Shown: positions 30,126-46,803 of the stretch, piece by piece
Layout: each line of letters begins with the position of its first letter
Position numbering within the stretch: position 1 is the first letter of the stretch
Assembly (NCBI RefSeq): GCF_034932065.1
Contig: NZ_JAYGHP010000002.1
Coordinates: 372,001 to 436,000, forward strand
Length of the DNA: 64,000 nt
Source: Crocosphaera sp. UHCC 0190
GTDB lineage: Bacteria > Cyanobacteriota > Cyanobacteriia > Cyanobacteriales > Microcystaceae
Direction: 5' to 3'
Position numbers and translations under genes: made by a program
The notes under the pieces: model-generated
What the model saw: the letters and a program-made list of their open reading frames with translations, nothing else
Database searches by the model: none
What the model was told of the DNA's origin: nothing

Positions 30126-30130
30126 ACCCG

Positions 30131-32041
30131 TTAAACACTATTTTTTTTTCCTACATTCTTTAAAGCATCTAACGTAAAGTCAAAATAAGATCCTAACCAC
30201 CTTAATATATCTTGGGTTCCTGCCATTTCCCAAATCCAAAGTAATAAAGTGGGATTCGTTCTAGCTGCTTTTAAAGCGAGTCGGGTAAACATTAACCAAG
30301 TCGTTTTGTCCTTAATAAAGGTTTCAGAAACATCAGAAGGAGAGTCTGCTAATAACCCAAAAAAGGTATTTAACATGGAATTAATTTGCTGTGGAGGCAA
30401 GGTTTTTCCGGTGGGAACCATCATCCCTTTAGAAAATAACCAAGTTACCGCCACATTACTTTGATAAGCGCGAATTTGGTTTAAATTTTTAGCGGTTAAA
30501 TTATCATTTTTTAACGCCTTTTCTAATAGACGAGTTAACCTGCCTAAGTTGCGAACTAAAGAACCAAATCCTGTAAAAATTAAGGGAGATTGTAAGGAAG
30601 CAGAATCCCCAATGGCTAATAATCGATCAAAGGCTACTTTGCGATCACTTTTCCCAACAGTAAAATGACCGGGAATATAGCCAAAAGTGGGTTTTTTCCA
30701 GGTTAATTCTTCTAAGTTACAACGACGATATTCTGGTAAAATATGGAAAAAATCTTCATACATTTCCAACAACGAACCAGGGTTATCAGGATGAACTTGA
30801 TGATAATGAAATAGATAAAAGGTTAACTCTTTATCCTCCCCTGGAAACAATTCCCAAATCAACTGTCTTCCGCGAGAAATATCCCCATGAGAATTTAATA
30901 CATCCCCATATCTTGCGTCCCAAACTTCCTCAGATAATCCTTCAATTACTGCTCCAACGGTAGGACAAACACTATCAAATGTCCGTTTACCATTAAGTTG
31001 CCAAGCAATAGGTGAAGTCGTACCCATCGCATCCATCAATAATCTGCATCTAACTTTTTTGGTTTCTGTTGTTTCCAAATCAACTAAGTTAACTGTTACC
31101 CCATCAGGATCAATATTCGCTTTAATAAATTCTGTTCTCTCCCAAATATCTCCTCCCGCTTTTCTTAATTTATCCCCACATAATCCCAAAAATTTAGTCG
31201 AATCAATGGCGATATTTAAAACTGTCGGTGTATGCAAAATATTGGCTTTCAGATGAGAAGGATTATTGCCATCAAAAAATTTACTAAATCCATCGATATA
31301 TTCTCGCGCAATAATCGATTCAAATTCATCTTTTGTGAATAAACCTAACTCAATTAAACTCTGAAATTCTGACCGAGAAATATTCCATTCTCGGTTCATG
31401 CGTCCAAAGACTAACCGTTCCACCAATAACACCCGATAGCCCAATTGTGCCATGACGGCTGCATGAATCGCCCCCAATGCCCCCCCAAGATAAATTAGGT
31501 CATAGTTGGTCAAAGTTGTTTCATCGAGGCTCTTTTGCTGAAAAATGACCTGTTTGGGTTGTTGTGGGTTCTTAACATTTTCTCGCCACCGTTTTTCCCA
31601 CCAGTAAACTCGCTGTAAGTCTGTCTCCCCTTGGGGCATTTTACGGAAAAAATGCACCGTTTTAGGATAATAAGGGGTTAAGGCTGCAAAAATTGATGTT
31701 TCTGAGAGATCTAATTCTGGTAATTCAGGATATTGCTGGGGAAACTCCTGTCTCATCTCTTGCTGCAACTGCATACAAACGTACTGTTCACGAGGGAAAG
31801 GTTTTTCACCCCAGCGAAAGATTTTCAGATAGGTAGTTCTTTGTACTGACCAGACAAAAATTGATAATTCCGTTTCAGGAATCCCCTGAGTCGAAGATGA
31901 AGATTGATCTACAACTTGCAAACGAATACCATCTGGTGTGATAATTTTCTTTCCCACGACTGGTGTCCACTGCTGTTGTAACCAGCGACAGACAAGGGGA
32001 GTATCAGGGGTTGGAACTTCGAGGTAGAGAATTTCTTGCAT
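30131..32041 (-). CDS. cruA: Lycopene cyclase, CruA/CruP family
   Basis: Flavoprotein of 636 residues related to lycopene cyclase CruA, which forms the beta-rings of carotenoids in cyanobacteria lacking CrtL. A Rossmann dinucleotide motif lies near residue 185 (LIYLGGALGAIHAAVMA). It also has the family segments GRMNREWNISRSEF and LLAIGDSASLQSPLIFTGFG. The length fits CruA; the shorter paralogue CruP shares most motifs and is said to lack cyclase activity, so CruP is not excluded. Known CruA enzymes carry bound chlorophyll. It stands alone and converges on the small basic gene. Confidence 0.78.
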   Translation of the reverse strand: MQEILYLEVPTPDTPLVCRWLQQQWTPVVGKKIITPDGIRLQVVDQSSSSTQGIPETELSIFVWSVQRTTYLKIFRWGEKPFPREQYVCMQLQQEMRQEFPQQYPELPELDLSETSIFAALTPYYPKTVHFFRKMPQGETDLQRVYWWEKRWRENVKNPQQPKQVIFQQKSLDETTLTNYDLIYLGGALGAIHAAVMAQLGYRVLLVERLVFGRMNREWNISRSEFQSLIELGLFTKDEFESIIAREYIDGFSKFFDGNNPSHLKANILHTPTVLNIAIDSTKFLGLCGDKLRKAGGDIWERTEFIKANIDPDGVTVNLVDLETTETKKVRCRLLMDAMGTTSPIAWQLNGKRTFDSVCPTVGAVIEGLSEEVWDARYGDVLNSHGDISRGRQLIWELFPGEDKELTFYLFHYHQVHPDNPGSLLEMYEDFFHILPEYRRCNLEELTWKKPTFGYIPGHFTVGKSDRKVAFDRLLAIGDSASLQSPLIFTGFGSLVRNLGRLTRLLEKALKNDNLTAKNLNQIRAYQSNVAVTWLFSKGMMVPTGKTLPPQQINSMLNTFFGLLADSPSDVSETFIKDKTTWLMFTRLALKAARTNPTLLLWIWEMAGTQDILRWLGSYFDFTLDALKNVGKKNSV

Positions 32042-32197
32042 TTTGATATGTTAAGAAAACCAAAATTAAGCAAAAGTACAGAGTAGAGTTGCTTGAAAGT
32101 ACGCTAGACTTTCCGTTACTGTATTCTGAAAGTACACTTTAAAAAAGTTTACATTTTCTTGGTCGATCCGGATTATTCAATATTTTATTTACCCGTT

Positions 32198-32431
32198 ATG
32201 CATTATCCCATTCCAGCAAGTCGTGAAGAAATATTTGCTTTAAGAAGCAGACCAGTCGATGAAGAAATGATCGCAGTGGCTATCACTGGGGTTGTCAAGC
32301 TTGCCCGTTCTCAGGGACAATCCTTAGATGATTTAACGGCTGAAGTCTTGCAAGAAGATCCCCTGTTAGATCGGGTTCAACGTCGTTGGTTGAGTAATTT
32401 AGTGGAACAGGCATGGCAGGCATTGCCATAA
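32198..32431 (+). CDS. Small conserved-looking hypothetical protein (77 residues)
   Basis: ATG at 32198 (a longer TTG-started frame begins at 32159). The product is acidic and mostly helical (DEEMIAVAITGVVKLARSQGQSLDDLTAEVL), without membrane segment or known motif. The codon use and even charge pattern look like a real gene. It diverges from the cruA-like gene. I do not recognise a family. Confidence 0.6.
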   Translation: MHYPIPASREEIFALRSRPVDEEMIAVAITGVVKLARSQGQSLDDLTAEVLQEDPLLDRVQRRWLSNLVEQAWQALP

Positions 32432-32634
32432 AAGGGCAAGTTGTGCTTATCCGGCAAAATTAAAACAATCTTTAAATTTCCCCAATCAATTAAACGTTAA
32501 AAACTTATCAAACTCAGGACAACAAAAACAGCACTCAAACACCTATAATAACCCCAGAGAATCGAGGCATAAGGCTGTTAATCACTGCCCTTGATTAGCT
32601 AAACTGCAACAATGGTATATCTTGTTATAGGCTC

Positions 32635-33594
32635 ATGTGGAAACCCTTAAAACTTGCTCCTTGGGCGATCGCAGCTAGTGCGGCCTGGTCTTTAGGCTTC
32701 ATTTATAATGTCTATTATGGTGGTGAATTAAGCTGGTTACGGGCCATGTATTTGGAAAAAATGTCCCTCGCGGCCCAAATTCAAACTTCCCCCAGATTAA
32801 TCATTACAGGGGGGTCAGGGGCCCATCATTCCATTAATTCTGAGGTACTTGAACAAAAATTAGGCATTAGGGTCTTCAATTTGGGGTTAGATGGCCCAGT
32901 GGGACTTGATGTTATTCTCCCCAGTGTTCTCGAAGCAGTTCGTCCAGGGGATATTGTTCTCTTAATTCCCGAAGACTTGATTTTGCTAGATGAGGACGGG
33001 TTGCTTGATCGTTCGGCCCCCTTTGGTATTGCCATCGGACAGCCAGGACTAGGGAACATTCCTCCCAGACAATTAATTGAAAGCTTCTGGATGCAGGGTA
33101 TTCCTACCCTCCGAGCCGTAACTAAATCAACGGTAGACTTAGTAGAAAAGGGTCGTATGACAGGATATTATTCCGATCCCTTAACTTCCCATGGCGACCC
33201 CAGTACCACAAAATATCGTGAGGGTAAATGGTGGACAAGGACAATTGACAACTCTATTTCTCCCCATGCGGTTCAACGAATTAGCCAATTTCGTCAAGAA
33301 TTAGAAGCTAAAGGTGCAACTTTAGTTCTATCTTTACCTTGGGTTTATAATAGTCATGATCCAAAAAGTATGGGAAATATGGAAAAAATCACGCAAAAAC
33401 TAAGTCAAATTGCCCCCTTAGTTTATGATAAAAATGATTATAATTTGAAAACAGATTCTAGTTTATTCGCAGATACTCATTATCATCTTTTGCTTGAAGC
33501 TAGAAAGATTCGCTCTCAAGCATTAGCTGAACAACTCAAACCGGTTCTTAAGGAATTAGAAGTTTTACCCGCTCAGAATTTTGATAAACAATGA
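32635..33594 (+). CDS. SGNH-like membrane-anchored protein
   Basis: Protein of 319 residues with an N-terminal hydrophobic anchor (about 9-26) and an SGNH-hydrolase-like domain: ITGGSGAHHSIN (nucleophile-like Ser61), then VFNLGLDGP and a late FADTHYHL carrying a D-x-H-type dyad. It has the same block order as the MBOAT partner at 22866, so the two are distant relatives. Its stop overlaps the start of the HTTM-DCC gene by four bases (ATGA), showing translational coupling and a likely joint function at the membrane. The substrate is unknown. Confidence 0.65.
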   Translation: MWKPLKLAPWAIAASAAWSLGFIYNVYYGGELSWLRAMYLEKMSLAAQIQTSPRLIITGGSGAHHSINSEVLEQKLGIRVFNLGLDGPVGLDVILPSVLEAVRPGDIVLLIPEDLILLDEDGLLDRSAPFGIAIGQPGLGNIPPRQLIESFWMQGIPTLRAVTKSTVDLVEKGRMTGYYSDPLTSHGDPSTTKYREGKWWTRTIDNSISPHAVQRISQFRQELEAKGATLVLSLPWVYNSHDPKSMGNMEKITQKLSQIAPLVYDKNDYNLKTDSSLFADTHYHLLLEARKIRSQALAEQLKPVLKELEVLPAQNFDKQ

Positions 33595-35441
33595 ACCCTG
33601 AAACTCCCTCAAAATTAACTAAAATTTTTGGTTTAGATTTACGCTCCTTGGCGGTTTTTCGCATGGGTTTGGCTTTAGTCGTCATGGCTGATTTATTAAG
33701 TCGAGCTAAGGGAATTAATGCCCATTATACCGATGCCGGTGTACTTCCTAGAGAAATATTAACTCAACAACTACTTCATCCTTGGTATTGGTCTTTTCAT
33801 TTAATTAGTGGTGATTTTTTCTTCCAAGTATTTCTCTTTTTAATCGCTTTTTTAATTGCCTTAGCTCTATTAGCAGGTTATCGTACCCGACTGGCTATTA
33901 TTGCAACTTGGGCTTTAAATGTTTCCTTGCAAAATCGTAATCCTGCTCTGATTTTTGCGGGAGATGATGTCTTAAGAGCCATGCTATTTTGGGCAATGTT
34001 TTTGCCGTTAGGTTGTGCTTATTCCCTCGATAGTGCCTTAAATTCTTCCCCTAAACCATTACCAAAACGGTTTGTGAGTGGGGCAACCTTTGCTTTTATT
34101 GTACAACTTATTTTTATTTATACTTGGTCAGCCGCTTATAAAACCAAAAGTGAGCTTTGGTGGCCTGATGGAGATGCCGTTTATTATTCTTTAAGTTTTG
34201 ATCAATATGCTACAGAATTTGGTCATTTTTTATTAGGGTTTCCTATTCCTATTCTCAGAATTTTAACCTTTGGTGCTTTAATTTTTGAATGGGTTGGCCC
34301 GTTTATTATTCTGATTCCTTTTCGCACTAGCTTTTTCCGATGTTTAGGGATTATTTCTTTTATTTTCTTACATCTTGGCTTTGAATTATCCTTTTCTATT
34401 GGGGTTTTAAGTTATCTGAGTGTGGTCAATTGGTTGACCTTAATTCCCACTGAATTATGGGATAAGGGAACGCAACTAATTAGCACCACTGCACGGAAAG
34501 GATTAACTATTTATTACGATGCAGATTGTGGATTTTGCAAGAAAGTTGTTCATTTTATCAGGACATTTTTGATTTTGCCAGGAACCCCTTTATTAATCGC
34601 TCAAGATCATGAATCTATCTATGCAGATATGTTAGAAAAAAATTCTTGGGTTGTAGTTGACTGGGAAAATAAACGTCATTATAAATTTGAAGCGATAGCT
34701 TATGTGGTTAGTTTATCCCCTATTCTCTATTTGTTTGCCCCTCTTTTGCGTTGGCAACCTCTGATGAATGTTGGCACAAAATTTTATGAAACCATTGCTT
34801 CAAATCGTAAATTTGCGGGTAATTTTACTCGTCCTTTCAAGTTTCGTCCTTTGCAAGTAAATTCATCCCTACCCTTTAATATTATTACTTTATTTCTGCT
34901 GTTTTTAACCACAATGTGGAATCTGCAAAGCTTTGTCGATCAAACCGTTGCTCGTCGTCCCTTGAAAGATGATTGGATTAATAAAACTCATCACTTTTTA
35001 AATCGTAAAACCTTTCAAACAATCAATATAATTGGTTATATAACTCGTTTAGATCAGTCCTGGAGTATTTTTGCTCCTGCACCCCCAAGAGATGACGGTT
35101 GGCACGTGATTGTCGGAAAATTAAAGGATGGAACGGAAGTCAATATTCTTGATGAAAAGCGTCCTATTAGTTGGGACAAACCTACATTAAAAAATCGTCA
35201 AACCCTCTATCAAACCATTCAATGGCGCGTTTATTTTATTAATTTGAATCGGACAATGGGCAAAAAATTGTATCCCCATTTTGCTGATTATCTTTGTCGA
35301 GAATGGAATAAAAAACATTCAACAGATCAACAATTAGAGAGTTTTGAAATTTATTTTATGGACGAAAGAACTGTCCCCCCAGGAGAAACCCAAAGAGTCG
35401 AAAAGAAAAAAGTTTGGCAACAATCTTGTTCTGGTGAGTAA
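33591..35441 (+). CDS. HTTM membrane enzyme fused to a DCC thiol domain
   Basis: Protein of 616 residues. Residues 1-290 form a multi-pass HTTM domain like vitamin-K-dependent gamma-carboxylases (early FRMGLALVVMADLLSRA, YTDAGVLP, LQNRNPALIFAGD). Residues 304-400 are a DCC (DUF393) thioredoxin-like domain with DADCGFCKK (Cys313, Cys316). After another membrane segment, the C-terminal 160 residues resemble the periplasmic tail found in some HTTM proteins (SIFAPAPPRDDGW). The fusion suggests a redox-assisted membrane reaction, but bacterial HTTM enzymes are mostly uncharacterised. It is coupled to the SGNH-like gene by a 4-base overlap. Confidence 0.78.
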   Translation: MNPETPSKLTKIFGLDLRSLAVFRMGLALVVMADLLSRAKGINAHYTDAGVLPREILTQQLLHPWYWSFHLISGDFFFQVFLFLIAFLIALALLAGYRTRLAIIATWALNVSLQNRNPALIFAGDDVLRAMLFWAMFLPLGCAYSLDSALNSSPKPLPKRFVSGATFAFIVQLIFIYTWSAAYKTKSELWWPDGDAVYYSLSFDQYATEFGHFLLGFPIPILRILTFGALIFEWVGPFIILIPFRTSFFRCLGIISFIFLHLGFELSFSIGVLSYLSVVNWLTLIPTELWDKGTQLISTTARKGLTIYYDADCGFCKKVVHFIRTFLILPGTPLLIAQDHESIYADMLEKNSWVVVDWENKRHYKFEAIAYVVSLSPILYLFAPLLRWQPLMNVGTKFYETIASNRKFAGNFTRPFKFRPLQVNSSLPFNIITLFLLFLTTMWNLQSFVDQTVARRPLKDDWINKTHHFLNRKTFQTINIIGYITRLDQSWSIFAPAPPRDDGWHVIVGKLKDGTEVNILDEKRPISWDKPTLKNRQTLYQTIQWRVYFINLNRTMGKKLYPHFADYLCREWNKKHSTDQQLESFEIYFMDERTVPPGETQRVEKKKVWQQSCSGE

Positions 35442-35531
35442 GGCGATCGCTGAATTTCTCTCATGAGATATTTTTGGGTAAATTTTAACTTAACACCATA
35501 CTCTAAAAAAATCAGAGAAAATATCCAATAA

Positions 35532-36896
35532 TTATAATGTTTGTGGGCGAAATTCATATAAACAGTAACGGTTACGCCCTGTAGCTTTCGCTTGATACAA
35601 TGCCTGATCAGCAGCTTTAATCAGTTTTTCTGGAGAAACATGAGCAGTGGGAATAGTAGTTGCTACCCCCAAACTTAAGGTAACATAGGGACTGCACTGG
35701 GAACAACAATGAGGAATCTTTAAATTTTCTACTCCTAAACATAGCTGTTGAGCAACTTTTTCTGCCCCTAAACTATTAGTATTAGAAAGAATAATGACAA
35801 ACTCTTCACCACCAAAACGAGCCACTAAATCCGCTGGACGCTTTACTAACTGTTTCATCAGTTTAGTGACTTTTTGTAGACATTTATCTCCCGCTTGATG
35901 AAAATAACAATCATTGTAGAGTTTGAAATAATCAACATCGCCTAAAATCAAAGAAATAAACTTTCTTTCTCTGGCTAATATTTTCCATTCTCGTAATAGA
36001 TATTCATTAAAATAACGACGATTATAAACTTGAGTTAATTCATCAACATTCGCTAAATATTCTAGCTCTTTTTTAGCCTGTTCTAACTCTTGAGTTCTTT
36101 GAATTACTTTTTCTTCTAATGTTTGGGAATATTCTTTGAGTTTTTCATAATATTGAGCCGTTTGAATGGCGGCAGCGGCTTGAGAGGTTAAAGACGTAAA
36201 TAACTTTAATTCTTCACTTGTATAATTAGTGGGTTGAACATGACTCACTTTAATCACACCAATGGTTTGATTTTGTACTTTTAGCGGCGCACAAATGAGG
36301 GATTTGGTGTTTGGATCATCAGCAATATATCGAGAATCTTCACTAACATTATTGACGATTTCTGCTTTTCCAGAACGCAACACATGACCGGAGATACTGC
36401 TAATAGTTCCTTGACTCTTGTAGCAGATTTTCCCTTGATAGGAAAAAACTTCTAATTCTCCTCGTTGATTCAAAAACTTGAAGGAAATATTATCATTTTT
36501 TAGCAGCTTATTAGTTTCTTCAACAACCACATCCATGATTTCTTGAAGGGTTAAACAAATAGAGAGTTTATGGGAAATATCTGAAAGAAAATTGATTTCT
36601 TCATACTTTTCTAATGTCTCAATAGCTAAGGATTTTTTTTCAAATTCCTGATAAGCAGCATGAGTTAACATCTGAGCAATAATTTGTGCCGTTTCTTCTC
36701 CATGAATTTGCCCAAGAATTTGCTCATTAAGGGTAATTGGATAATGACAAGGAAAAACGCCATTAAACTCACCCAAAACCATATTTCCTTGCTCATCAGT
36801 GATGAGGAAGGAAGTATTTAAAGCTAAACTGAGATTTTTAATCAGGGAACAAAGCTCCGGTTTTGCCAAAAGCTTTTTCAATTTAACCTGAATCAT
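35532..36896 (-). CDS. GAF-GGDEF diguanylate cyclase
   Basis: Makes the second messenger c-di-GMP from two GTP. The 454-residue protein has an unassigned N-terminal domain (1-95), a GAF domain (about 100-250), a coiled linker (250-278) and a GGDEF domain. The active motif GGEEF is at 362-366, and an RxxD product-inhibition site (RPAD, 353-356) lies five residues before it, so activity and feedback look intact. It is 34 bases downstream of the response-regulator gene and probably co-transcribed with it; the multi-GAF kinase gene is upstream on the same strand. Confidence 0.9.
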   Translation of the reverse strand: MIQVKLKKLLAKPELCSLIKNLSLALNTSFLITDEQGNMVLGEFNGVFPCHYPITLNEQILGQIHGEETAQIIAQMLTHAAYQEFEKKSLAIETLEKYEEINFLSDISHKLSICLTLQEIMDVVVEETNKLLKNDNISFKFLNQRGELEVFSYQGKICYKSQGTISSISGHVLRSGKAEIVNNVSEDSRYIADDPNTKSLICAPLKVQNQTIGVIKVSHVQPTNYTSEELKLFTSLTSQAAAAIQTAQYYEKLKEYSQTLEEKVIQRTQELEQAKKELEYLANVDELTQVYNRRYFNEYLLREWKILARERKFISLILGDVDYFKLYNDCYFHQAGDKCLQKVTKLMKQLVKRPADLVARFGGEEFVIILSNTNSLGAEKVAQQLCLGVENLKIPHCCSQCSPYVTLSLGVATTIPTAHVSPEKLIKAADQALYQAKATGRNRYCLYEFRPQTL

Positions 36897-36930
36897 GATC
36901 GGTTAGGGCGAAGGTCTGCAACTCTTTTAA

Positions 36931-37317
36931 TTATACTTGATTGATTCCCAAAATTTCTTTAGACTTCTTCAGCACTTCTTTGGGACGGAAGGGTTTAGTA
37001 ATATATAAGTCTGCACCGACGGCTATGCCATTGTCTCGATCAAATGCCTGTCCTCTCGCCGTTAAGAGAATGATATAGATATCAGCAATTTTCAGGGTTT
37101 GCTTGACTTGTTCACAGACTTCTAACCCACTCATTTGGGGCATCATCACATCTAAAAATACTAAATCAGGTTGTTCTTTTTGAATAATTTCTAGAGCCTC
37201 TGTGCCATTTCTTGCTGTTAATATTAAAATTTCATTTTCTTCTTCCAATTCCTCTAAAATTTGCTCCATCAAAATCAGAATATTCGGTTCATCATCAGCT
37301 ATTAAAACTTTTTTCAT
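36931..37317 (-). CDS. Single-domain response regulator (CheY-like)
   Basis: Receiver domain of 128 residues without output domain. The phospho-acceptor is Asp56 (FLDVMMP), with acidic pocket DDE (8-10), Thr86 and Lys108 (ITKPF), all intact. It lies between the genes of the multi-GAF histidine kinase and the diguanylate cyclase, which makes it the likely phosphate acceptor of that kinase. How it would act on the cyclase (by binding) is inference. Confidence 0.92.
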   Translation of the reverse strand: MKKVLIADDEPNILILMEQILEELEEENEILILTARNGTEALEIIQKEQPDLVFLDVMMPQMSGLEVCEQVKQTLKIADIYIILLTARGQAFDRDNGIAVGADLYITKPFRPKEVLKKSKEILGINQV

Positions 37318-37368
37318 TGTGTTTTGTTAAAATAAAGAGTCAGTTAAACAAAAAAGCAGACGCAGAAA

Positions 37369-37394
37369 TTAACCTTTTGTTAACAAAAGGTTAA
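37369..37394. promoter_or_regulatory. Perfect 26-bp palindrome before the response-regulator gene
   Basis: ttaaccttttgtt followed directly by its reverse complement lies 52 bases upstream of the response-regulator start, in the gap after the kinase gene. With no loop it suits a dimeric DNA-binding protein better than an RNA hairpin. There is no T-run to suggest a terminator. Confidence 0.55.
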
Positions 37395-37456
37395 TGTTGA
37401 GAGATAAAAAAATATCTTAAACAGAGTCATGATAATTTTTTTTTGATATTTTTCAA

Positions 37457-40400
37457 TTAAGTTAATTGATTAATGGGCAGTTTAACAAAGAAAATTGTGC
37501 CTTTTCCTAATTGACTTTCTAACCAAATTTGTCCACCATGTCGTTCAATAATTTGTTTACAAATTGATAGTCCTAATCCCGTTCCTCTGGGTTTATTGGT
37601 TAAAATATTCCCCACTTGTTGAAAAGGCTCAAAGACTTTGCCATAATCATTGTGCGCGATTCCGATACCCGTATCCGTGATCTTAATCAATAAATCTTGG
37701 TGATTTACCCTTGCTTGACAGGTAACTGAGCCAATTTCCGTAAATTTAACGGCATTAGAAAAAAGATTAATAAATACTTGAATTAAGCGATCTTCGTCCC
37801 CAAAAATCAGTGGTAAATCTGGTGGGAAGTCTTGCAATAAAGACAAATTTTGATCTTCAAACAGATAAGATGTTGCGGCGATCGCCCTTTCTAAAATTAG
37901 GGAAGGAGAGACTTGAGAAAAGTGCCATTCCACCTTACCTGCTTCCATTTTAGCCATATCTAAAACATCATTAACTAAACTGGTGAGGCGTTCTGATTCT
38001 GAAACAATAATATCAAGGTTTTGTTTCACCCGTTCCAGTGCTTTTTCAGTTGCCTGATCCTTCAGATTAAGCTGGGGAAAAATGACCTTATATAGTTTAT
38101 CTCGAATCAAAGAAGCAAACCCTAAAACAGAGGTTAAAGGCGTTCTTAATTCGTGGGAAACCGTCGCCAACAAATCATCTTTTACCCGTTCTGTCTCTCG
38201 TTCTTTGGTAATATCTCGAATTAAAATTACTGCCCCTAAATATTCTTCCCTCTCTTCTCCTTGTTCTTTAATAATATTACTAGCCAAGGCTTGACCAATG
38301 CGTTCTTGGGACAACTTAACTTCTCCCGTAATCACCTCTTTTTGGTCAAGTTTCTTTTGTTCGATCAGTGCCGATAATTCCGCTGGAAACACCTCATGGG
38401 CCTGCCTTCCTTGTGGGGCTTCTGTTAGATTAAACATGGACAGTAAGGCTGGATTAAAACGGGTAATTTTTCCTGAGTTATCGATAACTAACAAACCATC
38501 TCCCAAATTATCCACAATAGCATTAAGATCAGCCAGGGTACTTTGTAAGACATCAGACTGCTGTTGAGTCTGGGTTAATAATTCTGTTTGATCGATGGCA
38601 ACCCCTAACTGGTTAGCCACCTGTTTCAGTAAGTTCACCTCTCGTTTTTGCCAAGAACGGGGGCCCGTATTCTGATAGACCCCTAATAGTCCCCATAATT
38701 GATTTCTCACAAAAACAGGCACTACCACGAAGGCCCTCACTTGAAATTGCGCCAAAATATCAATATGACATGGGGTTAATCCAGCTTGATAAATGTTACG
38801 AATCGCCCAGGTTTCGTGGTGACGATATCTCCCCCCTTGAGTTTCTTGAAGATAGGTGTCTTCCCACATCGGTTTTTCCCCGAATTCTCCCGTTAAAGGT
38901 TTCCAACCTTCCCCAAGGGACTCATAAAGAAATTCACCATCCCAATTGTCCAAGAAACGATAAACCACCACGCGATCGCACTGCAACATCTGTCTCACTT
39001 CTTCCGTGGTGGAATAAAAGATTGATTCGAGATCTAAACGTTGACGAATACGCTTAATTACCCTAGCTAATGCCTTTTCTTGGGCGGCAATTTGGGCTAG
39101 ACTTTGTTTTTGTTGCTGCACTTGCTCTAAGGCGTTTTCCAGGGCTTGAGAGCGTTCTTGGGTTTGTTTTAATAATTCGGCTTGTTGTAAGGCTACGCTG
39201 AGGTTAGTAGCAATTTTGGTAATAAACCCCTTTTCTGAGGTTTTCCACTGACGGGGGCCCGAACATTGATGAATACATAATAACCCCCAGAGTTCCTCCC
39301 CTTTCAGTAAAGGGGCCACTATATTTGCCCGCACTTGAAACTGGGCCAATATGTCTCGATAACAGTCTGATAAGTCAGCTTTTTCTACATCATTAATAGT
39401 ACAAACATGACTTTGTTGATAATAGGGCGCACTATGTCTGGCAAAACAATTATCTTCCACTTGGGCCGTCAAAGCGGAAATATATTCGGCGGCCACATCT
39501 TCTGATACTAATTCTGCTAGGGAAAATTCTGAATCAGGATCAAATTGAAACACGGCGACTCGATCTGCTTTGAGGAGATAACGGACTTCCGTGACAGCAG
39601 TTTGAAAAATGGTATCTAAATCGAGGGTACGACGAATTTTATCAATGACTTCAGACAAGGCCCGTTCTTGTTGCACTGCGATCGCCTGTTCTTGAGCATA
39701 GTCTTGAATTTGTTGTACATAAAAAGTTTGTTGCAGGGCAATACTGACATGGTGGGCCACCTGTTGTAATAACTGCACTTCATCGCTTTGCCAATTTCGG
39801 GACTGGGTATGTTCAAACCCTGCGAGTAGTCCCCAAAGTCGTAACCCTTGGAACAGGGGAACGACGGCCATGGATTTCACCCCAAAGCTTTCTAAGATTT
39901 CCAGGTGACAACGAGAGGAGCGATCATCTGTTTCAATATTATTAATGACACAGGTATGATTTTCTTGAAATCTTCCCCCTTGGGTTTCTTGTAAATATTC
40001 ATCATCCCAACGACGGCCCACTAAAGCTAAAAATTCCCTAGGATCTGATTCAAAGATAAATTTACCCCCATAGTCGGGATCAAATTGATAAATGGCAATA
40101 TGTTCTACCCCTAAGAGTTTTTGCACTTCTGTGGCGGCAGTTTGAAAGATGGTATTTAAGTCGAGGGTTCGACGAATTTTATCGATTACAATGGCCAGCG
40201 ATCGCTCTTTTTGGTTAGTCTTAGCGAGGGTTTCTGTTTGTTGTTTTAAGGCGGTTTCTAGGGCTGTTTGTAGTTGTTCTTCGTGTTGTTGGGTTTGGGC
40301 TAATAAGTTGGCTTGTTGTAGGGCAATGCCTAGGTTTACTCCCACTTGTACCATAAAATTGATTTCTGCATCTTCCCAGTGACGAGGCCCTGAGTTTTGA

Positions 40401-41443
40401 TAAGCGGCTAATAACCCCCAAAGGCAGTTATTTTTGTAGAGGGCAACAATAATATAAGCTTGGGCTTCATATCTTTGGATTAGTTCGATATAACAATCAG
40501 GAAATCCTGCTTGATAGATGTTATCACAGACTCGCAATAGGTCTTGAGGGGTAAAGATTCTCCCTTCTGTGCTTTGTAAGTAACTGTCGCTTAGTTCAGG
40601 GTTTCCTAATAATTTGAGGCGACATTCAGCAATTCTGGCACCAATGGCCAAATCTTCTTGTTGTTTGCTGAGTAAAGATGTCCAGCCCTCTCCCACAGAT
40701 TCCATGATAAACTCTCCACTGTAATCGTCATGGAGGCGATAAATAGCTACTCGATCTGCTTTGAGGAGTTGACGGGCTTCTTGGGTAGCTGTGGTTAAAA
40801 TGGTATTAATATCAAGCGATCGCCGAATTTTATCAATAATTTTGGCAATGGTTTCCTGTCGCTGTACAGCTTGCTCTACTGCTTCATTTAAGTGTTTTGC
40901 TTGATTTTGTTGTTTTTGGTACATTTCGGTTTGTTCTACGGCGATACTTAAATGAAGGGCGATCTGTTGCACAAACAGAATTTCTGTCTCTTCCCAATAA
41001 CGGGGTTGTGAGCAATGATGAATCAGCAACCGTCCCCAAGGTTGTTTTCTTTTGTAGATGGGAACCACAATTTGCCCTTGACAATCCCATTTTTGCACCA
41101 GGGAACAATAGCGATCTGGTAAAATAACTGATTGAAAATCATTGACTAACCACAGTCCGTCGGGTTGGGCATAAATTTGATAAGCTTCTTCTAATTTATG
41201 ATCCCAGGGCAACTGTTGACTAGCGTAGATATCAGGCGATCGCCCACTTCCCTCACTCACCCACCCCTGATGATTCGAGTCTAAGGGATAAATGCCTACC
41301 CGATCTGTCTTTAATAGCTGTCGAACTTGATTGGTCGTCAATAGAAAAATCTGCTCTAATTCTACGAATTCCTGGATTTTTTTGACTATTTCTCTTAAAA
41401 ACTCCTGCTGAGCCATTAATAAAGGGTTTTGCTTCATTGGCAT
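37457..41443 (-). CDS. Five-GAF sensor histidine kinase, probable multi-cyanobacteriochrome
   Basis: Soluble hybrid-sensor kinase of 1328 residues: GAF1 (about 21-170), GAF2 (200-375), GAF3 (417-570), GAF4 (597-752), GAF5 (792-950), PAS (968-1080), HisKA with His1097 (SHELRTP) and an HATPase domain (N-box near 1230, DTGIG 1257-1261, GTGLGLS). Four GAF domains keep a Cys at the bilin-attachment place: Cys317-Tyr, Cys512-His, Cys694-Tyr, Cys892-His. GAF4 also has DNCF (664-667), the DXCF second-cysteine motif of blue/green types. GAF3 and GAF5 carry W(D/E)D-x-YLQETQGGR-(F/Y), as in red/green types. GAF1 lacks the Cys. Light sensing is inferred. It is followed by a response regulator and a diguanylate cyclase. 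Confidence 0.88.
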   Translation of the reverse strand: MPMKQNPLLMAQQEFLREIVKKIQEFVELEQIFLLTTNQVRQLLKTDRVGIYPLDSNHQGWVSEGSGRSPDIYASQQLPWDHKLEEAYQIYAQPDGLWLVNDFQSVILPDRYCSLVQKWDCQGQIVVPIYKRKQPWGRLLIHHCSQPRYWEETEILFVQQIALHLSIAVEQTEMYQKQQNQAKHLNEAVEQAVQRQETIAKIIDKIRRSLDINTILTTATQEARQLLKADRVAIYRLHDDYSGEFIMESVGEGWTSLLSKQQEDLAIGARIAECRLKLLGNPELSDSYLQSTEGRIFTPQDLLRVCDNIYQAGFPDCYIELIQRYEAQAYIIVALYKNNCLWGLLAAYQNSGPRHWEDAEINFMVQVGVNLGIALQQANLLAQTQQHEEQLQTALETALKQQTETLAKTNQKERSLAIVIDKIRRTLDLNTIFQTAATEVQKLLGVEHIAIYQFDPDYGGKFIFESDPREFLALVGRRWDDEYLQETQGGRFQENHTCVINNIETDDRSSRCHLEILESFGVKSMAVVPLFQGLRLWGLLAGFEHTQSRNWQSDEVQLLQQVAHHVSIALQQTFYVQQIQDYAQEQAIAVQQERALSEVIDKIRRTLDLDTIFQTAVTEVRYLLKADRVAVFQFDPDSEFSLAELVSEDVAAEYISALTAQVEDNCFARHSAPYYQQSHVCTINDVEKADLSDCYRDILAQFQVRANIVAPLLKGEELWGLLCIHQCSGPRQWKTSEKGFITKIATNLSVALQQAELLKQTQERSQALENALEQVQQQKQSLAQIAAQEKALARVIKRIRQRLDLESIFYSTTEEVRQMLQCDRVVVYRFLDNWDGEFLYESLGEGWKPLTGEFGEKPMWEDTYLQETQGGRYRHHETWAIRNIYQAGLTPCHIDILAQFQVRAFVVVPVFVRNQLWGLLGVYQNTGPRSWQKREVNLLKQVANQLGVAIDQTELLTQTQQQSDVLQSTLADLNAIVDNLGDGLLVIDNSGKITRFNPALLSMFNLTEAPQGRQAHEVFPAELSALIEQKKLDQKEVITGEVKLSQERIGQALASNIIKEQGEEREEYLGAVILIRDITKERETERVKDDLLATVSHELRTPLTSVLGFASLIRDKLYKVIFPQLNLKDQATEKALERVKQNLDIIVSESERLTSLVNDVLDMAKMEAGKVEWHFSQVSPSLILERAIAATSYLFEDQNLSLLQDFPPDLPLIFGDEDRLIQVFINLFSNAVKFTEIGSVTCQARVNHQDLLIKITDTGIGIAHNDYGKVFEPFQQVGNILTNKPRGTGLGLSICKQIIERHGGQIWLESQLGKGTIFFVKLPINQLT

Positions 41444-41913
41444 CCGATAACTCAGGGAAATATCACATAATCCAAATTATAGTTTAATCTAAAATTAATT
41501 AATTGATTACTATTTTTATTTTTAAATGTTTAAAAACAACACCCCAGTCTTACTCTCCGGTTTTATTCCTCTCTTTTGTGAGACTATCTGGAGGTATCGA
41601 ACAACCCCTTAACTCTTAACAAACTCAAGACAAGGGCTATTGATTGACTCCCATTTTACCCATTTGAGGAATGATCCGTTTTCTGACTGGGTGTTGTTGT
41701 CGGATACGAGACAGACGTTTAGTTTAAACAGCGTTAACTTACCTCTTGGTTTTACTGATGTTCACTGGGCTGTTTGATCTGCCAGGGAAGCTTTACCTTG
41801 CTTCAATTACCAATATATCAACTTCCTTTCCCCCTTGACAGCTTTTGTAACAAAGCTTCATATTTGATGATTACTGGTGAAGTTTTCAGGCTTACTTAAG
41901 AGGAATTGGATTT
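41444..41913. other. 470-bp intergenic region upstream of the multi-GAF kinase
   Basis: No gene, tRNA or strong terminator was found. It should contain the kinase promoter. The stretch around 41580-41800 is less AT-rich than the flanks and could encode a small RNA, but I see no clear stem followed by a T-run. Confidence 0.4.
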
Positions 41914-42429
41914 TTAACTATTTTTTTCTTTCAAATTACAATGTTTTTGCAGTAAAGATAAAGCCAATTCAAAAGAGTTTGGTTGAGTTTGCACTGCATA
42001 AGCTTCCCGTTCTAAATCTTGGCGATGAATATCAGAATATTGTTGAAAAAAAGGACGAGCATAATTAATCGGTTCAACCTCTAATCTTAAGGTTGTTATT
42101 TTACCTTTTCCAGCGCAAACTTGAGCAGCATGAACCGATTCATGAATAAGAGTTGGGAGAGAAATATTGAGATCAAAAACCACCGGATTAATCCAAATCT
42201 TTTTAGTTTCTACCTGTAATAAGCCATAGGCTCCTCTTTGGGGTGGTAAAGCAAAAATCACTTCAAATCCTGCTTTTTCTAAGTCTTTTTTCAAGGTTGT
42301 AAACTCTAAACTTTCTCTCGAAGCTTGGACAATAATAGAAGGATTTGGTAAGCCTTGATTATCGTAATATTGTTGAGGCAAGAAATGGAAAAATAGCCAA
42401 CCAGAAACCCCTAAAAAGTGAATTAACAT
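41914..42429 (-). CDS. Putative zincin-like (HExxH) protein
   Basis: Protein of 171 residues with an N-terminal hydrophobic anchor or signal segment (LIHFLGVSGWLFFHFL) and a central HESVH motif (TLIHESVHAAQ), the zinc-binding helix of gluzincin-type peptidases. A downstream Glu in DLEREAYAVQ may be the third ligand. This pattern suggests a small membrane-attached metallopeptidase. I recognise no named family; the function is inferred from the motif only. It stands alone between the kinase and the phycobilisome genes. Confidence 0.65.
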   Translation of the reverse strand: MLIHFLGVSGWLFFHFLPQQYYDNQGLPNPSIIVQASRESLEFTTLKKDLEKAGFEVIFALPPQRGAYGLLQVETKKIWINPVVFDLNISLPTLIHESVHAAQVCAGKGKITTLRLEVEPINYARPFFQQYSDIHRQDLEREAYAVQTQPNSFELALSLLQKHCNLKEKNS

Positions 42430-42869
42430 TTGTCCTTAAAGCTCTGTCAAGTATTTAGTTTTTTGGTAGCGCATTAGTTTCTTATTTTAATGTAGGATTA
42501 AGTCTCGAAAATTATTTTATCAAACATAGATAAATAAAGCATTGGGATCAGGAAGGGATCAAGGGATAAAAGAAGAAAATTCAGGGAACTAAAAAGAATG
42601 TATAGGCTGATATTCATTGTCAATGAGAAAATTTTGAGGAATGATGTAACTTAGCCCCTAAATATTCAGTAAAATATAAAAATCTGCTGAAATTTTTCAA
42701 ATTGTGGTCGAAGTTCTTTCATAGAGAAAAGCGACAACCCATGATAGGCTAAGGAAAATCCCTAAGCTCAACCAGCTTTAACGTTTTCATCAAAGCATAT
42801 TCAGTAGCCAGCTAAATCAACCTGATCGGGCTGTCATTAATCCCAATGTACCCAGTAACCTAAACTAAC
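42430..42869. other. Intergenic region upstream of the CpcD-like linker gene
   Basis: About 440 bp of AT-rich DNA between divergent genes, expected to contain the promoter of the linker and lyase genes. No gene or strong inverted repeat was seen. Confidence 0.4.
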
Positions 42870-43310
42870 ATGGCGACTAACAACGACGCAAATAACCGTG
42901 TTTTTCTATATGAAGTGGTGATTCAACCCCAAATGGCGGCACTTAACCAAATTAACGGTTTATTTCAACGTCGGGGGAAATTTTACTTAAAAGTCCCTTA
43001 TAAACGGATGAACCAAGAAATGCAACGGATCACCCGCTTAGGAGGCAAAATTGTGAATATTATGCCTGTTAATGCTCTCAATGAGCTACCGATTAAACAG
43101 AAAATTGAATTGCCCTGGTGGGTTGAAATTATAACAACACAGCCCCGTTGTTTGTATTATTTTGGCCCCTTTGACAGTCCCGAAGAAGCCCAAATTAATC
43201 AAGGGGGTTATGTGGAAGACTTAAAAGAAGAAGGTGCAAACGGTATTACCATAAAAATCAAACAATGTCAACCCCCAATCTTAACTCAAGAGTTGAATGG
43301 GGATGTCTAA
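42870..43310 (+). CDS. CpcD-domain linker fused to DUF1816
   Basis: Protein of 146 residues in two parts. Residues 8-60 form a CpcD-type phycobilisome linker domain (RVFLYEVVIQP, then GKFYLKVPYKRMNQEMQRI), as found at rod ends or in FNR. Residues 78-135 form a DUF1816 domain (LPWWVEIITTQPRCLYYFGPF, GYVEDLKEEGA). Typical CpcD is only about 80 residues, so this is a fusion that may cap rods or tether another factor to the phycobilisome. It is 33 bases upstream of the CpcS-like lyase gene. Confidence 0.82.
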   Translation: MATNNDANNRVFLYEVVIQPQMAALNQINGLFQRRGKFYLKVPYKRMNQEMQRITRLGGKIVNIMPVNALNELPIKQKIELPWWVEIITTQPRCLYYFGPFDSPEEAQINQGGYVEDLKEEGANGITIKIKQCQPPILTQELNGDV

Positions 43311-43343
43311 AAACTGTTAAAAGTAACGGGAGTCATCAAAATT

Positions 43344-43943
43344 ATGGACGCATTAGAATTTTTTCAAAATAGTTCAGGAAAATGGCGATCGCAGCGCACC
43401 ACCCATCATTTAGCCTTTAGACGGGCAGAAATTGGCAACTCAGAGATTTATGTAGAAGCTCTTGGGCCGGATCATCCAAAAATTGCCGAAATTTGCCAAC
43501 TGCACGACTTTGATCCCGCTTTAGCCATTGGGGGTGCGTTTGTCAGTTGGGATGGTTCCATGGCCTGGGATAAAGAAGACGAAAATCACGAAGGCAACAC
43601 CATTTTTGCCTTAATCCCCGATGCTGATAATCCGAGAGAGGGAATGCTCTTAAGAGAAAGGGGTTATGCAGAAATTGTCCCCATTGCCGGCCGTTATCAG
43701 ATAGATGAGGATAATGCCCTAGTGTTGGTGACAGAATACGACACCATGAGTACCATTGAAAGGTTTTGGTTTGTAAATCCTGACCTAAGATTGAGAACCA
43801 GTACGGTACAACGGTTTGGGGGCTTTAATACGGCGACGTTTTGCGCGGAAATGCGTCAGGAAGACAAGGGCAATGACTCCGTTGATGCCGTCGTCGGCAA
43901 CGTCTCAACCCTCAATCCTTGCTATTCCATTACGGGTTGGTAG
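43344..43943 (+). CDS. cpcS: Phycobiliprotein lyase, CpcS/CpeS family
   Basis: Chromophore lyase (199 residues, ten-strand lipocalin-like barrel) that attaches phycocyanobilin to Cys84-type sites of phycobiliproteins. The N-terminal FFQNSSGKWRSQRTTHHLAFR and the SWDGSMAW and RFWFVNPDLRLRTS segments match the CpcS group. It follows the CpcD-DUF1816 gene closely and precedes cpcG. Which CpcS type (CpcS-I or the partner of CpcU) cannot be decided here. Confidence 0.88.
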   Translation: MDALEFFQNSSGKWRSQRTTHHLAFRRAEIGNSEIYVEALGPDHPKIAEICQLHDFDPALAIGGAFVSWDGSMAWDKEDENHEGNTIFALIPDADNPREGMLLRERGYAEIVPIAGRYQIDEDNALVLVTEYDTMSTIERFWFVNPDLRLRTSTVQRFGGFNTATFCAEMRQEDKGNDSVDAVVGNVSTLNPCYSITGW

Positions 43944-44127
43944 AGAAGGGTGAGAGGTGTGGGAGGTTTAATAGAAGGTAATTTCTCCCTTGTTTCCCCC
44001 CTCTTCTTTCTCCTTCCCTTTCTAATTAATTGTAATAATTGTTAATATTACTCGGCTTAACGTCCCCAACTCCCTTATGATTAGGATTACAGTTTTTAAG
44101 AATTTGTAAAATAACGGAGGTTCAAAC

Positions 44128-44880
44128 TTGGCTCTTCCTCTTTTAGATTACGCGCCAAAATCCCAAAATGCGCGAGTAGAAGGATACCTGGTACCAGGAG
44201 ACGAGCAACCGATCGTCTTTACCACAGAAAATCTCCTCTCTCCAGGAGAAATGGGTAATCTGATCGAAGCGGCTTACCGCCAGATCTTTTTCCATGCGTT
44301 TCAGTGGGATCGGGAACCTGTCCTAGAGTCCCAACTCCGTAATGGACAAATTACCGTGCGGGACTTCATTCGTGGTTTGTTACTCTCTAAGACGTTTATC
44401 AACAGCTTCTACGAGAAAAATAGTAACTACCGCTTTGTTGAACAGTGTGTTCAACGGGTACTCGGCCGGGATGTCTACAGCGAACGGGAAAAAATCACTT
44501 GGTCTATTGTCGTTGCGACCAAAGGATACGGCGGTTTCATCGACGAATTGCTCAATAGTGATGAGTATCTAGAAAACTTCGGTTATGATACCGTTCCTTT
44601 CCAACGTCGTCGTAACTTACCTGGACGCGAAGCGGGTGAAACCCCCTTCAATATCAAGTCCCCCCGTTATGATGGCTACTATCGCACCATTTTGGGCTTC
44701 CCCCAAATCGTTTGGCAAAACGAAATCCGTCGTTACGTTCCTCAAGACCAAAAAGCCAAAGCAGGAGATCCTTCCAACTTCTTAGGAGTAGCACGGAGTC
44801 TTCCCAGTGCTAAAGGAAACCCCACTGGCAGGGTTTCTACCGGAAGTCTGGATTATATGGCGGCTGTTCCTCGTCGTTAA
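44128..44880 (+). CDS. cpcG: Phycobilisome rod-core linker CpcG
   Basis: Linker (250 residues) attaching phycocyanin rods to the allophycocyanin core. It opens with [20 protein letters not shown], the CpcG signature, followed by the Pfam linker domain ([16 protein letters not shown]) and a short C-terminus without a membrane helix. It is therefore the core-attached CpcG1 type, not the photosystem-I-associated CpcL type. The start is an unusual TTG at 44128, fixed by a strong GGAGG seven bases upstream and by homology. Confidence 0.95.
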
Positions 44881-44909
44881 TTAAACGGCGTTATTCTGAA
44901 GCTTAAGGC

Positions 44910-44986
44910 TTAGGGAAAGTTGCGGATGGGCAGGATGATTAAGTCAACTCGACGAAGTTATGCTGTGGATCTGTGGCTTTCCCTAA
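44910..44986 (+). other. Long-loop stem downstream of cpcG
   Basis: A 10-bp perfect inverted repeat ttagggaaag/ctttccctaa encloses 57 bases and is followed by tttt, 30 bases after the cpcG stop. It may be the 3' end of the cpcG message or a short structured RNA. Confidence 0.4.
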
Positions 44987-45061
44987 TTTTATTGGTGAGT
45001 TTTTTCAAGAATTAATGATAGTTAATCAATGCTATAATTTCTCGAAAAATGATTGATTTGA

Positions 45062-45142
45062 CTAGGTTTAACCTCTTCGGGAGCGAGAAGTCCCCGCATA
45101 AGGAACGCAGTCGCTACGCGGAATGCGTGGGTAGTTCACGAC
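45062..45142 (+). mobile_element. IS200/IS605-type right-end relic
   Basis: The stretch containing cgggagcgagaagtcccc, an internal stem (ccccgcat/atgcgtggg) and the final gggtagttcac resembles the right end of cyanobacterial IS200/IS605 elements, where the 3' end of the TnpB guide RNA lies. No tnpA or tnpB gene is present, so it is a solo end left after decay or an unusual excision. The assignment is from memory of such ends, not a search. Confidence 0.5.
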
Positions 45143-45175
45143 AATAATATAAAATTCATCTGACCTTTTTTATCT

Positions 45176-46000
45176 ATGACCAATCCTTCCCCCATCAATA
45201 TTTTAATCAGTAATGATGATGGCATTTTTTCCCTCGGTGTCCGCACCCTGGCCAATACCCTGGCCGAAGCAGACTATAATGTCACTGTTGTTTGTCCTGA
45301 TCGAGAACGCTCGGCTACAGGTCATGGCTTGACTCTACATCGTCCCATTCGGGCAGAAATTGTCGAGGATTTTTTTGCTCCGACAATTGCTGCTTGGTCC
45401 TGTTCAGGAACCCCCTCAGACTGTGTAAAATTAGCCTTGAGTACCCTACTAGAAACCCGTCCTGATATCATTGTTTCAGGCATTAATCATGGCTCCAATT
45501 TGGGTACAGACGTTCTTTATTCAGGCACTGTATCAGCAGCTATGGAAGGCATTATTGAAGGCATTCCTAGTGTTGCCATTAGTTTAGCCAGTTTTTCTTC
45601 CCGTGAGTTTCAACCCGCCGCCAATTTTGCCTGTACCCTAGTCAAACAGTTGGCCAGTCATCCTCTTCCCGAAAGTACCCTACTTAATGTTAATGTTCCT
45701 CCCGTGGCCTCAAATGCGATCGCTGGTGTAATGATCACCCGTCAAGGGTTGCGTCGCTATGTGGAAAATTTTGAGAAGCGTATCGATCCCAGAGGAAAAA
45801 GCTACTATTGGTTGGCCGGAGAGTTAGTCACAGAAATAGAACAACCGGATCATATTCATCTTCCTCCCGACATTCCCACCGATGTCCAGGCCATTCAACA
45901 TAATTACATTACCATCACTCCCCTGCAATACAATCTCACTGATGTAGCAGGTTTCGAGTATTTACACAGAACTCGCTGGGTAGGCACTTATCTCAATTAA
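45176..46000 (+). CDS. surE: 5'/3'-nucleotidase SurE
   Basis: Metal-dependent nucleoside-monophosphate phosphatase (274 residues) linked to stationary-phase survival. The metal site [13 protein letters not shown] (10-22), the SGTPSDCVK motif and [19 protein letters not shown] are all intact. Its start lies about 35 bases after the IS-end relic, so that relic sits in its promoter region. Confidence 0.94.
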
Positions 46001-46062
46001 TCTCGTCAATAACTGATGACAATTTATGATATTCTAATTCAATCGCAGTCTTATTTAAAACC

Positions 46063-46653
46063 ATGTCATCGTTCCAATTCAACCAAGAAAGCGATCCAGA
46101 AGATATCGATAGTGTGACCTTAACTGACGAAGACGGTCGCACTCTAGAATGTTATGTAGAAAACGCGATCGAAGGAGACGATGGAACTTATCTCTTGCTG
46201 ATGCCTGTAGATATTCCTATTGTCGTTTTGGTCTGGGATGAAGAGGATCAAGATGTTGAGGACACCGAAGAAATTACTAATGCTGTCTTATTAGAAGATA
46301 AAATCGAAATCGAAGAGATTTTCCCTGACGCTAAAGCTGTGTTAGCGGAACTCGATTTGACCCTAAAATTAACGGCCTTTACCCTAACGGTAGTGGGGGA
46401 ATTACCTCCTATAGAAGATGATGGCATTTTAACCCTAGAATTAGAAACAGATGGGCCAGCCTTAGACTCAGAAGAGTTACAATTTCTCAAAGATTTTTAT
46501 CATCAAGATCAAAAATACTCAATTTATACTCCCTTGTCTCCCTTACTCTTTTTGGCCAAATATAATTTGCTGGGAGAAGTAGAATTAGTGTCTCCTGAAG
46601 ATGAGGAAATGCAAGCAATTTTAGAAGAATTATTATTTGATGACATGGAGTGA
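46063..46653 (+). CDS. Acidic DUF3727-type protein
   Basis: Protein of 196 residues, very acidic (many Asp and Glu), conserved in cyanobacteria and plastids but without known function. It begins with a DUF1292-like strand region (VTLTDEDGRTLECYVENA, then DGTYLLLMPVDIPIVVL), and the C-terminal half carries the DUF3727-like part (YSIYTPLSPLLFLAKY). It has no membrane segment. It lies 62 bases after surE and may share its transcript. Confidence 0.72.
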   Translation: MSSFQFNQESDPEDIDSVTLTDEDGRTLECYVENAIEGDDGTYLLLMPVDIPIVVLVWDEEDQDVEDTEEITNAVLLEDKIEIEEIFPDAKAVLAELDLTLKLTAFTLTVVGELPPIEDDGILTLELETDGPALDSEELQFLKDFYHQDQKYSIYTPLSPLLFLAKYNLLGEVELVSPEDEEMQAILEELLFDDME

Positions 46654-46803
46654 TGTAAGGGTGTGAGGGAATGAGGAGGTGAGGAGAAAGTTTTCCCATT
46701 ACCCCATTACCCCAATTTGGAATCATCTTTTGATTTGTTGCGTCTGTTAAGATAATCGTCAATTGGTTACAGTATTGGGTGATTGTGTTAGGAGTGAGCA
46801 GGG

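Follow-up and report, generated by a model that had tools for sequence, protein, structure and literature searches.

The window analyzed here, a 64,000-nt stretch of Crocosphaera sp. UHCC 0190 (contig NZ_JAYGHP010000002.1, positions 372,001 to 436,000), carries on its minus strand three adjacent genes for a sensor kinase (K), a lone receiver (R), and a diguanylate cyclase (D), which probably form a relay from light to a second messenger: a kinase with four sensor classes would act through R on the N-terminal domain (NTD) of D, and thereby on cyclic di-GMP (c-di-GMP). We also lean slightly toward a broader reading, in which R and the NTD together are an undescribed general connector of cyanobacteria, and exchange of the catalytic part gives cyclic AMP (cAMP) or c-di-GMP from one inherited full-spectrum sensor. 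Comparative genomics is the basis for the partnership and the output exchange. What the sequences show is the domains and catalytic residues, the gene order and co-occurrence, and varied outputs on one N-terminal half.

The genes lie in the order K, R, D, with intergenic gaps of 139 bp (K-R) and 34 bp (R-D). Open reading frame (ORF) coordinates and Pfam domains confirmed the trio of kinase, receiver, and cyclase that a first-pass annotation of this DNA had placed at 35532-41443. K (37457..41443; 1328 aa; ORF and Pfam) has the architecture five GAF-PAS-HisKA-HATPase_c; the five GAF domains had been recognized before, but the PAS domain (38198..38530, aa 972-1082, Pfam) had been overlooked. The HisKA-HATPase_c transmitter (37469..38182, aa 1088-1325, identified by Pfam and motifs) was intact, with H1097 in SHELRTPLT, an N box, and a G box. 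R (36931..37317; 128 aa; ORF and Pfam) is a Response_reg protein with D56 as phospho-acceptor, and its phospho-site was complete, as had been claimed (D8, D9, D56, T86, and K108). Among 88 aligned members of the R family, D56 and K108 were present in all 88, T86 in 87 (S in the other), and D8 and D9 in 87 (a gap in the other). D (35532..36896; 454 aa) reads NTD-GAF-GGDEF. The earlier description as GAF-GGDEF held as far as it went but overlooked the domain ahead of the GAF. The active and inhibition sites attributed to the cyclase were both found, GGEEF at 362 and an RPAD I-site at 353, five residues ahead; GGEEF was present in 28 and the I-site in 23 of the 29 NTD-GGDEF proteins fetched. The GGDEF catalytic domain (35562..36065, aa 278-445) is the exchangeable part.

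The NTD (36552..36896, aa 1-115 of D) is a domain of approximately 115 aa common to class III cyclases and histidine kinases adjoining the same receiver family. At the search thresholds used, the window genome had a single match to the NTD and a single receiver of the R family, and the two adjoin. Pfam gave nothing for the NTD of the window protein, and PocR matched 1 of 10 members at a nonsignificant E of 0.0021; among PDB sequences, the best match to the NTD was at chance level (E = 0.09).

The distribution of the three genes was followed in two samples of relatives, in which we label fetched loci L, genomes G, and families and genera f and g. In the family sample (50 genomes including the window genome; K at E ≤ 1e-150, D orthologs at E below 1e-95), K and D orthologs occurred in exactly the same 21 genomes, and R was found in 20 of those 21. 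The exception, G039, lacked R and had a broken D. A further deviating genome, G014, had R but no D ortholog; a short piece of kinase appeared there once the threshold was relaxed. Both states were seen within genus g11 (three genomes with K and D, four with none of the trio), and the Synechocystis-like G044, G045, and G047 retained all three genes, though unlinked.

The order sample comprised 242 genomes, with R identified at E ≤ 1e-36 and the NTD by profile at E ≤ 1e-6 (121 NTD matches, the NTD genes of G168 and G260 being counted as two pieces each). R was present in 86 genomes and the NTD in 93; 84 genomes had both, 2 only R, 9 only the NTD, and 147 neither (Fisher P of about 1e-51, ignoring kinship). 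A hand tally by genus showed the same association (n = 109; both 44, R only 1, NTD only 5, neither 59; P of about 1e-23). An NTD lay within 6 kb of 67 of the 101 receivers and within 20 kb of 84 of them, and the pair was within 6 kb in 58 of the 84 genomes holding both. Every one of the 29 genomes in which the kinase was found (E ≤ 1e-130) had R, compared with 86/242 overall. The order kinase-receiver-cyclase was seen in 35 of 35 fetched loci holding a cyanobacteriochrome kinase, R, and an NTD-GGDEF protein or NTD-class III cyclase. The functional link among the three genes, first proposed from this DNA alone, is thus backed by gene order and co-occurrence far beyond the window genome. A scan of genome contigs with K as the query gave 29 loci, none with the NTD (0/29); only L030 and L046 were cyanobacterial by title, Chamaesiphon being taken as cyanobacterial.

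The protein behind R did not always end in a GGDEF domain. Pfam assigned a class III cyclase to the C-terminal end of six of nine NTD proteins beside other receivers, and HisKA-HATPase to that of the other three; a tenth protein scanned was a kinase lacking the NTD. We then compared 51 distinct cyanobacteriochrome-kinase loci (52 rows, G274 occurring twice; the window and L069, whose kinase spans two ORFs, were excluded). The output was NTD-GGDEF in 23, NTD-class III cyclase in 13 (11 in f2 g15 and 2 in f14 g99), and NTD-histidine kinase in 1; an unclassified NTD protein was found in 2, and none was in view in 12 (several of these being contig ends or unlinked). Among all fetched loci, NTD-GGDEF proteins were confined to loci or genomes with a cyanobacteriochrome kinase, except in L116, which showed no kinase in view and whose genome was not among the kinase matches. 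In L109, the five-GAF kinase matched K at 63% over GAF5-PAS-histidine kinase and the receiver matched R at 68%; the class III cyclase that forms the output there carries NKFVGD and DYTAIGD motifs and is presumably of the adenylate type. The c-di-GMP link proposed earlier stands for the lineage of the window; a class III cyclase takes the place of GGDEF in other lineages that share the kinase type and the receiver.

An NTD-GAF tree of 70 rows (leaving out L068, L112, and L115, with unclassified outputs, and proteins under 200 aa) required two changes of output over three states, the minimum possible; class III proteins from cyanobacteriochrome operons fell between the majority of the GGDEF proteins and the remainder. 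In a kinase tree of 82 rows (quick mode, histidine kinase stretches under 180 aa left out), the GGDEF/class III character required three changes among 43 cyanobacteriochrome kinases (30 and 13, respectively; 5 of the 30 were labeled GGDEF from a D elsewhere in the genome). Two groups of class III kinases lay near different GGDEF kinases (SH-aLRT support of 89 and 84), and a single clade for the class III kinases was not rejected (p-AU = 0.34). The comparison places at least one output exchange inside the conserved sensor-receiver operon. Class III versions also occurred outside the order (L144 and L146) and with kinases without cyanobacteriochrome GAFs, which hints that GGDEF may be the derived output. 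In L128-L133, L136-L139, and L165, the same connector is part of a system of two kinases, R following a kinase without cyanobacteriochrome GAFs and an NTD-GAF-histidine kinase; the L128 kinase beside R is a PAS hybrid kinase by Pfam.

By sequence, GAF2-GAF5 of K belong to the cyanobacteriochrome GAFs, and bilin binding is predicted. The bilin-type Cys attributed to these domains were present (C317 in CY, C512 in CH, C694 in CY, and C892 in CH), and the best E values to solved cyanobacteriochrome chains were 6e-44, 1e-42, 2e-43, and 5e-62, respectively. In an alignment of 12 five-GAF kinases (K and 11 orthologs), both Cys of GAF4 and that of GAF5 were kept in 12/12, the canonical Cys of GAF2 in 10/12, and that of GAF3 in 9/12; because of this retention, the Cys pattern is best regarded as conserved and not due to chance. 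Known cyanobacteriochromes were included in a tree of 66 GAFs (careful mode; seven reference domains, with UG1, UG2, VO1, and UB1 outside the tree), as the first-pass annotation had suggested, and GAF3 grouped with JSC1_58120g3 and GAF5 with Slr1393g3. Its view that several cyanobacteriochrome classes meet in one kinase was supported by motifs, structure matches, and this tree; indeed, the predicted classes are more diverse than it had stated, including insert-Cys, far-red, DXCF, and red/green.

GAF1 (40910..41416, aa 10-178) is degenerate, as described before, and has no bilin Cys. The canonical Cys was absent from GAF1 of K, and none was kept in that column across 12 orthologs, among which GAF1 is poorly aligned. 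In the tree, GAF1 had a very long branch (2.5) and was placed with GAFs that come first in other kinases. In eight other kinases (L070, L075, L098, L100, L101, L102, L107, and L109), the first GAF keeps the DXCF Cys, so that GAF1 resembles a DXCF domain that has decayed.

GAF2 (40286..40867, aa 193-386) is of the insert-Cys type by motif. In addition to the canonical C317, which had been noted earlier, it has a 29-aa loop holding C274-R-L-K, a CXXK motif that had been overlooked (C274 codon, 40622..40624). The GAF2 clade (9 rows, support 100/99) showed a loop of 27-29 aa with CXXK/R in 9/9, and the loop Cys was found in 12/12 close orthologs (shifted by one column in one of them), with strict CXXK/R in 6/12. 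The nearest solved structures by sequence were 5zoh/3w2z and NpR6012g4. A fold model of GAF2, reliable except in its loop (mean pLDDT 83.5, loop 54-68), gave 3w2z, presumably AnPixJg2, as the top PDB match, followed by 6oap. From the motif we infer a near-UV/violet type. Insert-Cys domains are characterized in the literature by CXXR/K in an insertion loop, and their dark states range from near-UV to violet (PMC5240096).

GAF3 (39704..40216, aa 410-580) and GAF5 had both been called red/green; the assignment held for GAF5, in the Slr1393g3 clade, and failed for GAF3, which formed a clade of eight rows with the far-red JSC1_58120g3 (100/99). We therefore rejected red/green for GAF3 and regard it, with C512, as probably JSC1_58120g3-like. 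Its best PDB match was 6xhg at 148.6 bits, a small margin over the 145.6 bits for 6bhn (NpR6012g4). PDB titles describe JSC1_58120g3 as far-red absorbing with dihydrobiliverdin (DHBV), and an excerpt of the literature states that it binds biliverdin (BV) or DHBV and cannot bind phycocyanobilin (PMC10151467). Extra Cys were observed just ahead of the canonical site in GAF2 (C306, 12/12 orthologs) and GAF3 (C498, 11/12).

GAF4 (39155..39676, aa 590-763) carries the DXCF motif reported earlier, with C666 in DNCF, 28 residues before C694, the spacing seen in the TePixJ alignment. Its best PDB match was 6oap, a dual-sensor kinase, followed by miRFP670nano (which we take to be an NpR3784 derivative), with the TePixJ chains lower. 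GAF4 fell outside the TePixJ clade, in a 28-row group separated from TePixJ, 6oap, and miRFP670nano by a 100/99 branch; this group, which also contains GAF1, stands apart from all seven reference domains. GAF5 (38561..39088, aa 786-961; C892) is of the red/green type by sequence, with E = 5e-62 to 6bhn (NpR6012g4) and 2e-58 to 5dfx (Slr1393g3). It lay in a 13-row clade with Slr1393g3 (98/90), and the wider 24-row group around it took in AnPixJg2, NpR6012g4, and the far-red clade.

In the proposed relay, four bilin-binding GAFs of different color classes would set the state of a single histidine kinase, with predicted ranges of near-UV/violet (insert-Cys), far-red (JSC1-like), blue/green (DXCF), and red/green. 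That light sets the kinase is expected because it is known for the photoreceptor family. The kinase would then phosphorylate or dephosphorylate R at D56, a step suggested by the intact residues and by the presence of R in 29/29 kinase-bearing genomes. R would act in trans on the NTD of the output protein, as their co-occurrence across three outputs suggests, and the NTD-GAF stalk would gate the GGDEF dimer, so that c-di-GMP tracks the light spectrum. Elsewhere, R and the NTD would serve as a reusable connector gating a class III cyclase (presumably forming cAMP) or a second histidine kinase. Phosphotransfer, the R-NTD contact, the sign of control, the colors, and the docking role of the NTD are what we infer beyond the observed genes and residues.

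Several observations weigh against this relay. For 34 of the 101 receivers the NTD was more than 6 kb away or absent, no NTD protein was found in the several kb fetched past the kinase and receiver genes of L110 and L113, and the kinase adjoining R in some loci is a hybrid that itself includes a receiver part. The sampled genomes are related, so the counts are not independent. An AlphaFold model of D aa 1-260 from the single sequence had a pLDDT of 34.6 and was unusable for the R-NTD contact, and the weak PocR resemblance, in 1 of 10 members, means that the NTD might sense a ligand instead. One alternative is a branched system, in which R serves another target, such as a pilus or phycobilisome regulator, while D senses a ligand through its NTD or GAF and the genes are merely coexpressed. 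Consistent with this, R lacks an output domain and D brings a GAF of its own together with a faintly PocR-like NTD; in six loci of f8, f9, and f20 (L142, L143, L148, L150, L166, and L167), the 12-13 kb fetched showed R near kinases but no NTD. However, R and the NTD were jointly present or jointly absent in 231/242 genomes, and they were kept together even when unlinked and whatever the output domain. We consider a branched system unlikely, and prefer action of R on the NTD.

Less probable still is a GAF array that is mostly vestigial, with GAF5 alone working and K acting as a plain red/green kinase. In Slr1393, the last GAF is the studied one. GAF1 is degenerate, the Cys was lost from GAF3 in 3/12 and the canonical Cys from GAF2 in 2/12 orthologs, and strong cyanobacteriochrome GAFs number one or two per kinase in the Synechocystis-like L076-L078; yet GAF2-GAF5 of the window all keep their Cys, and 12/12 orthologs have both the GAF2 loop Cys and the second Cys in GAF4. 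The surroundings of the operon raise a further alternative, chromatic acclimation, in which K would tune adjacent phycobilisome genes and c-di-GMP would be secondary. Just past the operon (42870-44880, plus strand) lie genes for a CpcD-DUF1816 protein, a CpeS-type lyase, and a CpcG-type rod-core linker. L067 has the three next to its kinase as well, and in L116 homologs of CpcG and CpeS occur close to a D homolog. The operon, however, has no DNA-binding output, and all three genes were present in only 1 of 20 family loci (L067), a different linker group being found in L075. We regard chromatic acclimation as very improbable, and the relay from K through R to D remains our preferred reading.

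Cyanobacteriochrome kinases, diguanylate cyclases, and photoreceptor-to-cyclase relays were already known. K appears to belong to the orthologous group of Slr1393 (Synechocystis PCC 6803; GAF array-PAS-histidine kinase with a red/green GAF3), to which its GAF5-PAS-histidine kinase part appears orthologous. The last GAF of L076 (G047) was the sister of Slr1393g3 (100/99), and this kinase matched K aa 511-1324 at 49%; the Synechocystis-like L076-L078 have three GAFs, two of them weak or degenerate, compared with five in K, and R and D are unlinked there. JSC1_58120, presumably of Leptolyngbya JSC-1, has its far-red g3 in the GAF3 clade of K. L107_d2 shows the same three motif strings as JSC1_58120g3, and the L107 kinase lies in a K-R-NTD operon that differs from the window in its output, an NTD-GAF-class III cyclase. 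In the Ses proteins and Cph2, sensor and GGDEF/EAL share one polypeptide, without the kinase and receiver of the window. CyaC of Anabaena carries its own receiver, in contrast to the free R, and we know of no lone receiver or NTD in the AphC-CyaC system.

Excerpts of the cited papers describe related systems. Cyanobacteriochrome or phytochrome GAFs of SesA, SesB, SesC, and Cph2 control c-di-GMP (PMC5871770, PMC4284465), and in AphC-CyaC of Anabaena a photoreceptor kinase reportedly phosphorylates and activates an adenylate cyclase (PMC4284465). Phosphorylation by CdgK raises the activity of the diguanylate cyclase CdgS in Anabaena PCC 7120 (PMC9927289). An identity of the trio with CdgK-CdgS was rejected, since CdgK is described as a CHASE-PAS hybrid and CdgS as a receiver-GGDEF fusion, compared with the separate 128-aa receiver here; D was likewise rejected as Dgc2 of Leptolyngbya boryana, described as CHASE2-PAS-GGDEF (PMC10581220). 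UG1, UG2, VO1, and UB1 have their second Cys in a CXXR/K insertion loop (PMC5240096), as in GAF2; by residue numbers, the distance from Cys to the DXCF-Tyr is 14 in GAF2 and 28 in UG1. Among the matches listed, titles and abstract openings described neither the trio nor an exchange of messenger behind it, the subscription literature being mostly outside this search. Pairing with a free receiver, the NTD as connector, and the messenger exchange were likewise absent from these matches.

If the proposed relay is correct, it offers a concrete and testable route from light color to a second messenger by way of a free receiver, and the NTD is a candidate partner of lone receivers, for many of which no target is known. 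It would also provide a natural swap of c-di-GMP and presumed cAMP behind one sensor, such that the choice of messenger could be changed by replacing one domain, and the NTD-GAF half could serve directly as a building block for color-controlled cyclases. With putative insert-Cys, far-red, DXCF, and red/green GAFs, K would be well suited to studying how one kinase sums several colors. Motility or aggregation may be the final effect, as proposed in the first-pass annotation. c-di-GMP or light-regulated cyclases govern aggregation and motility in other cyanobacteria, as stated in excerpts of two papers (PMC5871770, PMC4284465).

A seven-GAF relative of K was found in L070 (8658-13925, minus strand), with three DXCF GAFs, one near-DXCF, one insert-Cys, one degenerate, and one red/green by motif. 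In the draft loci L067, L068, and L069, kinase, receiver, or cyclase genes were broken by stops or frameshifts, reflecting assembly error or decay. The host presumably bears phycobilisomes, because the window contains linkers and a CpeS-type lyase and the genome has one match to ferredoxin-bilin reductase. Rfam at the gathering threshold gave no match in window positions 30000-48000, and a promoter scan gave no excess (16 sites, compared with 17.8 in shuffles); a terminator scan gave 9 sites, compared with 6.1 in shuffles (SD 1.9). On the plus strand at 33591-35441, convergent with the D gene, lies a gene for a 616-aa protein, part of which is a DCC1-like thiol oxidoreductase, and homologs of this protein adjoin the cyclase gene in L059, L060, L062, L063, and L065 and are broken in L068.

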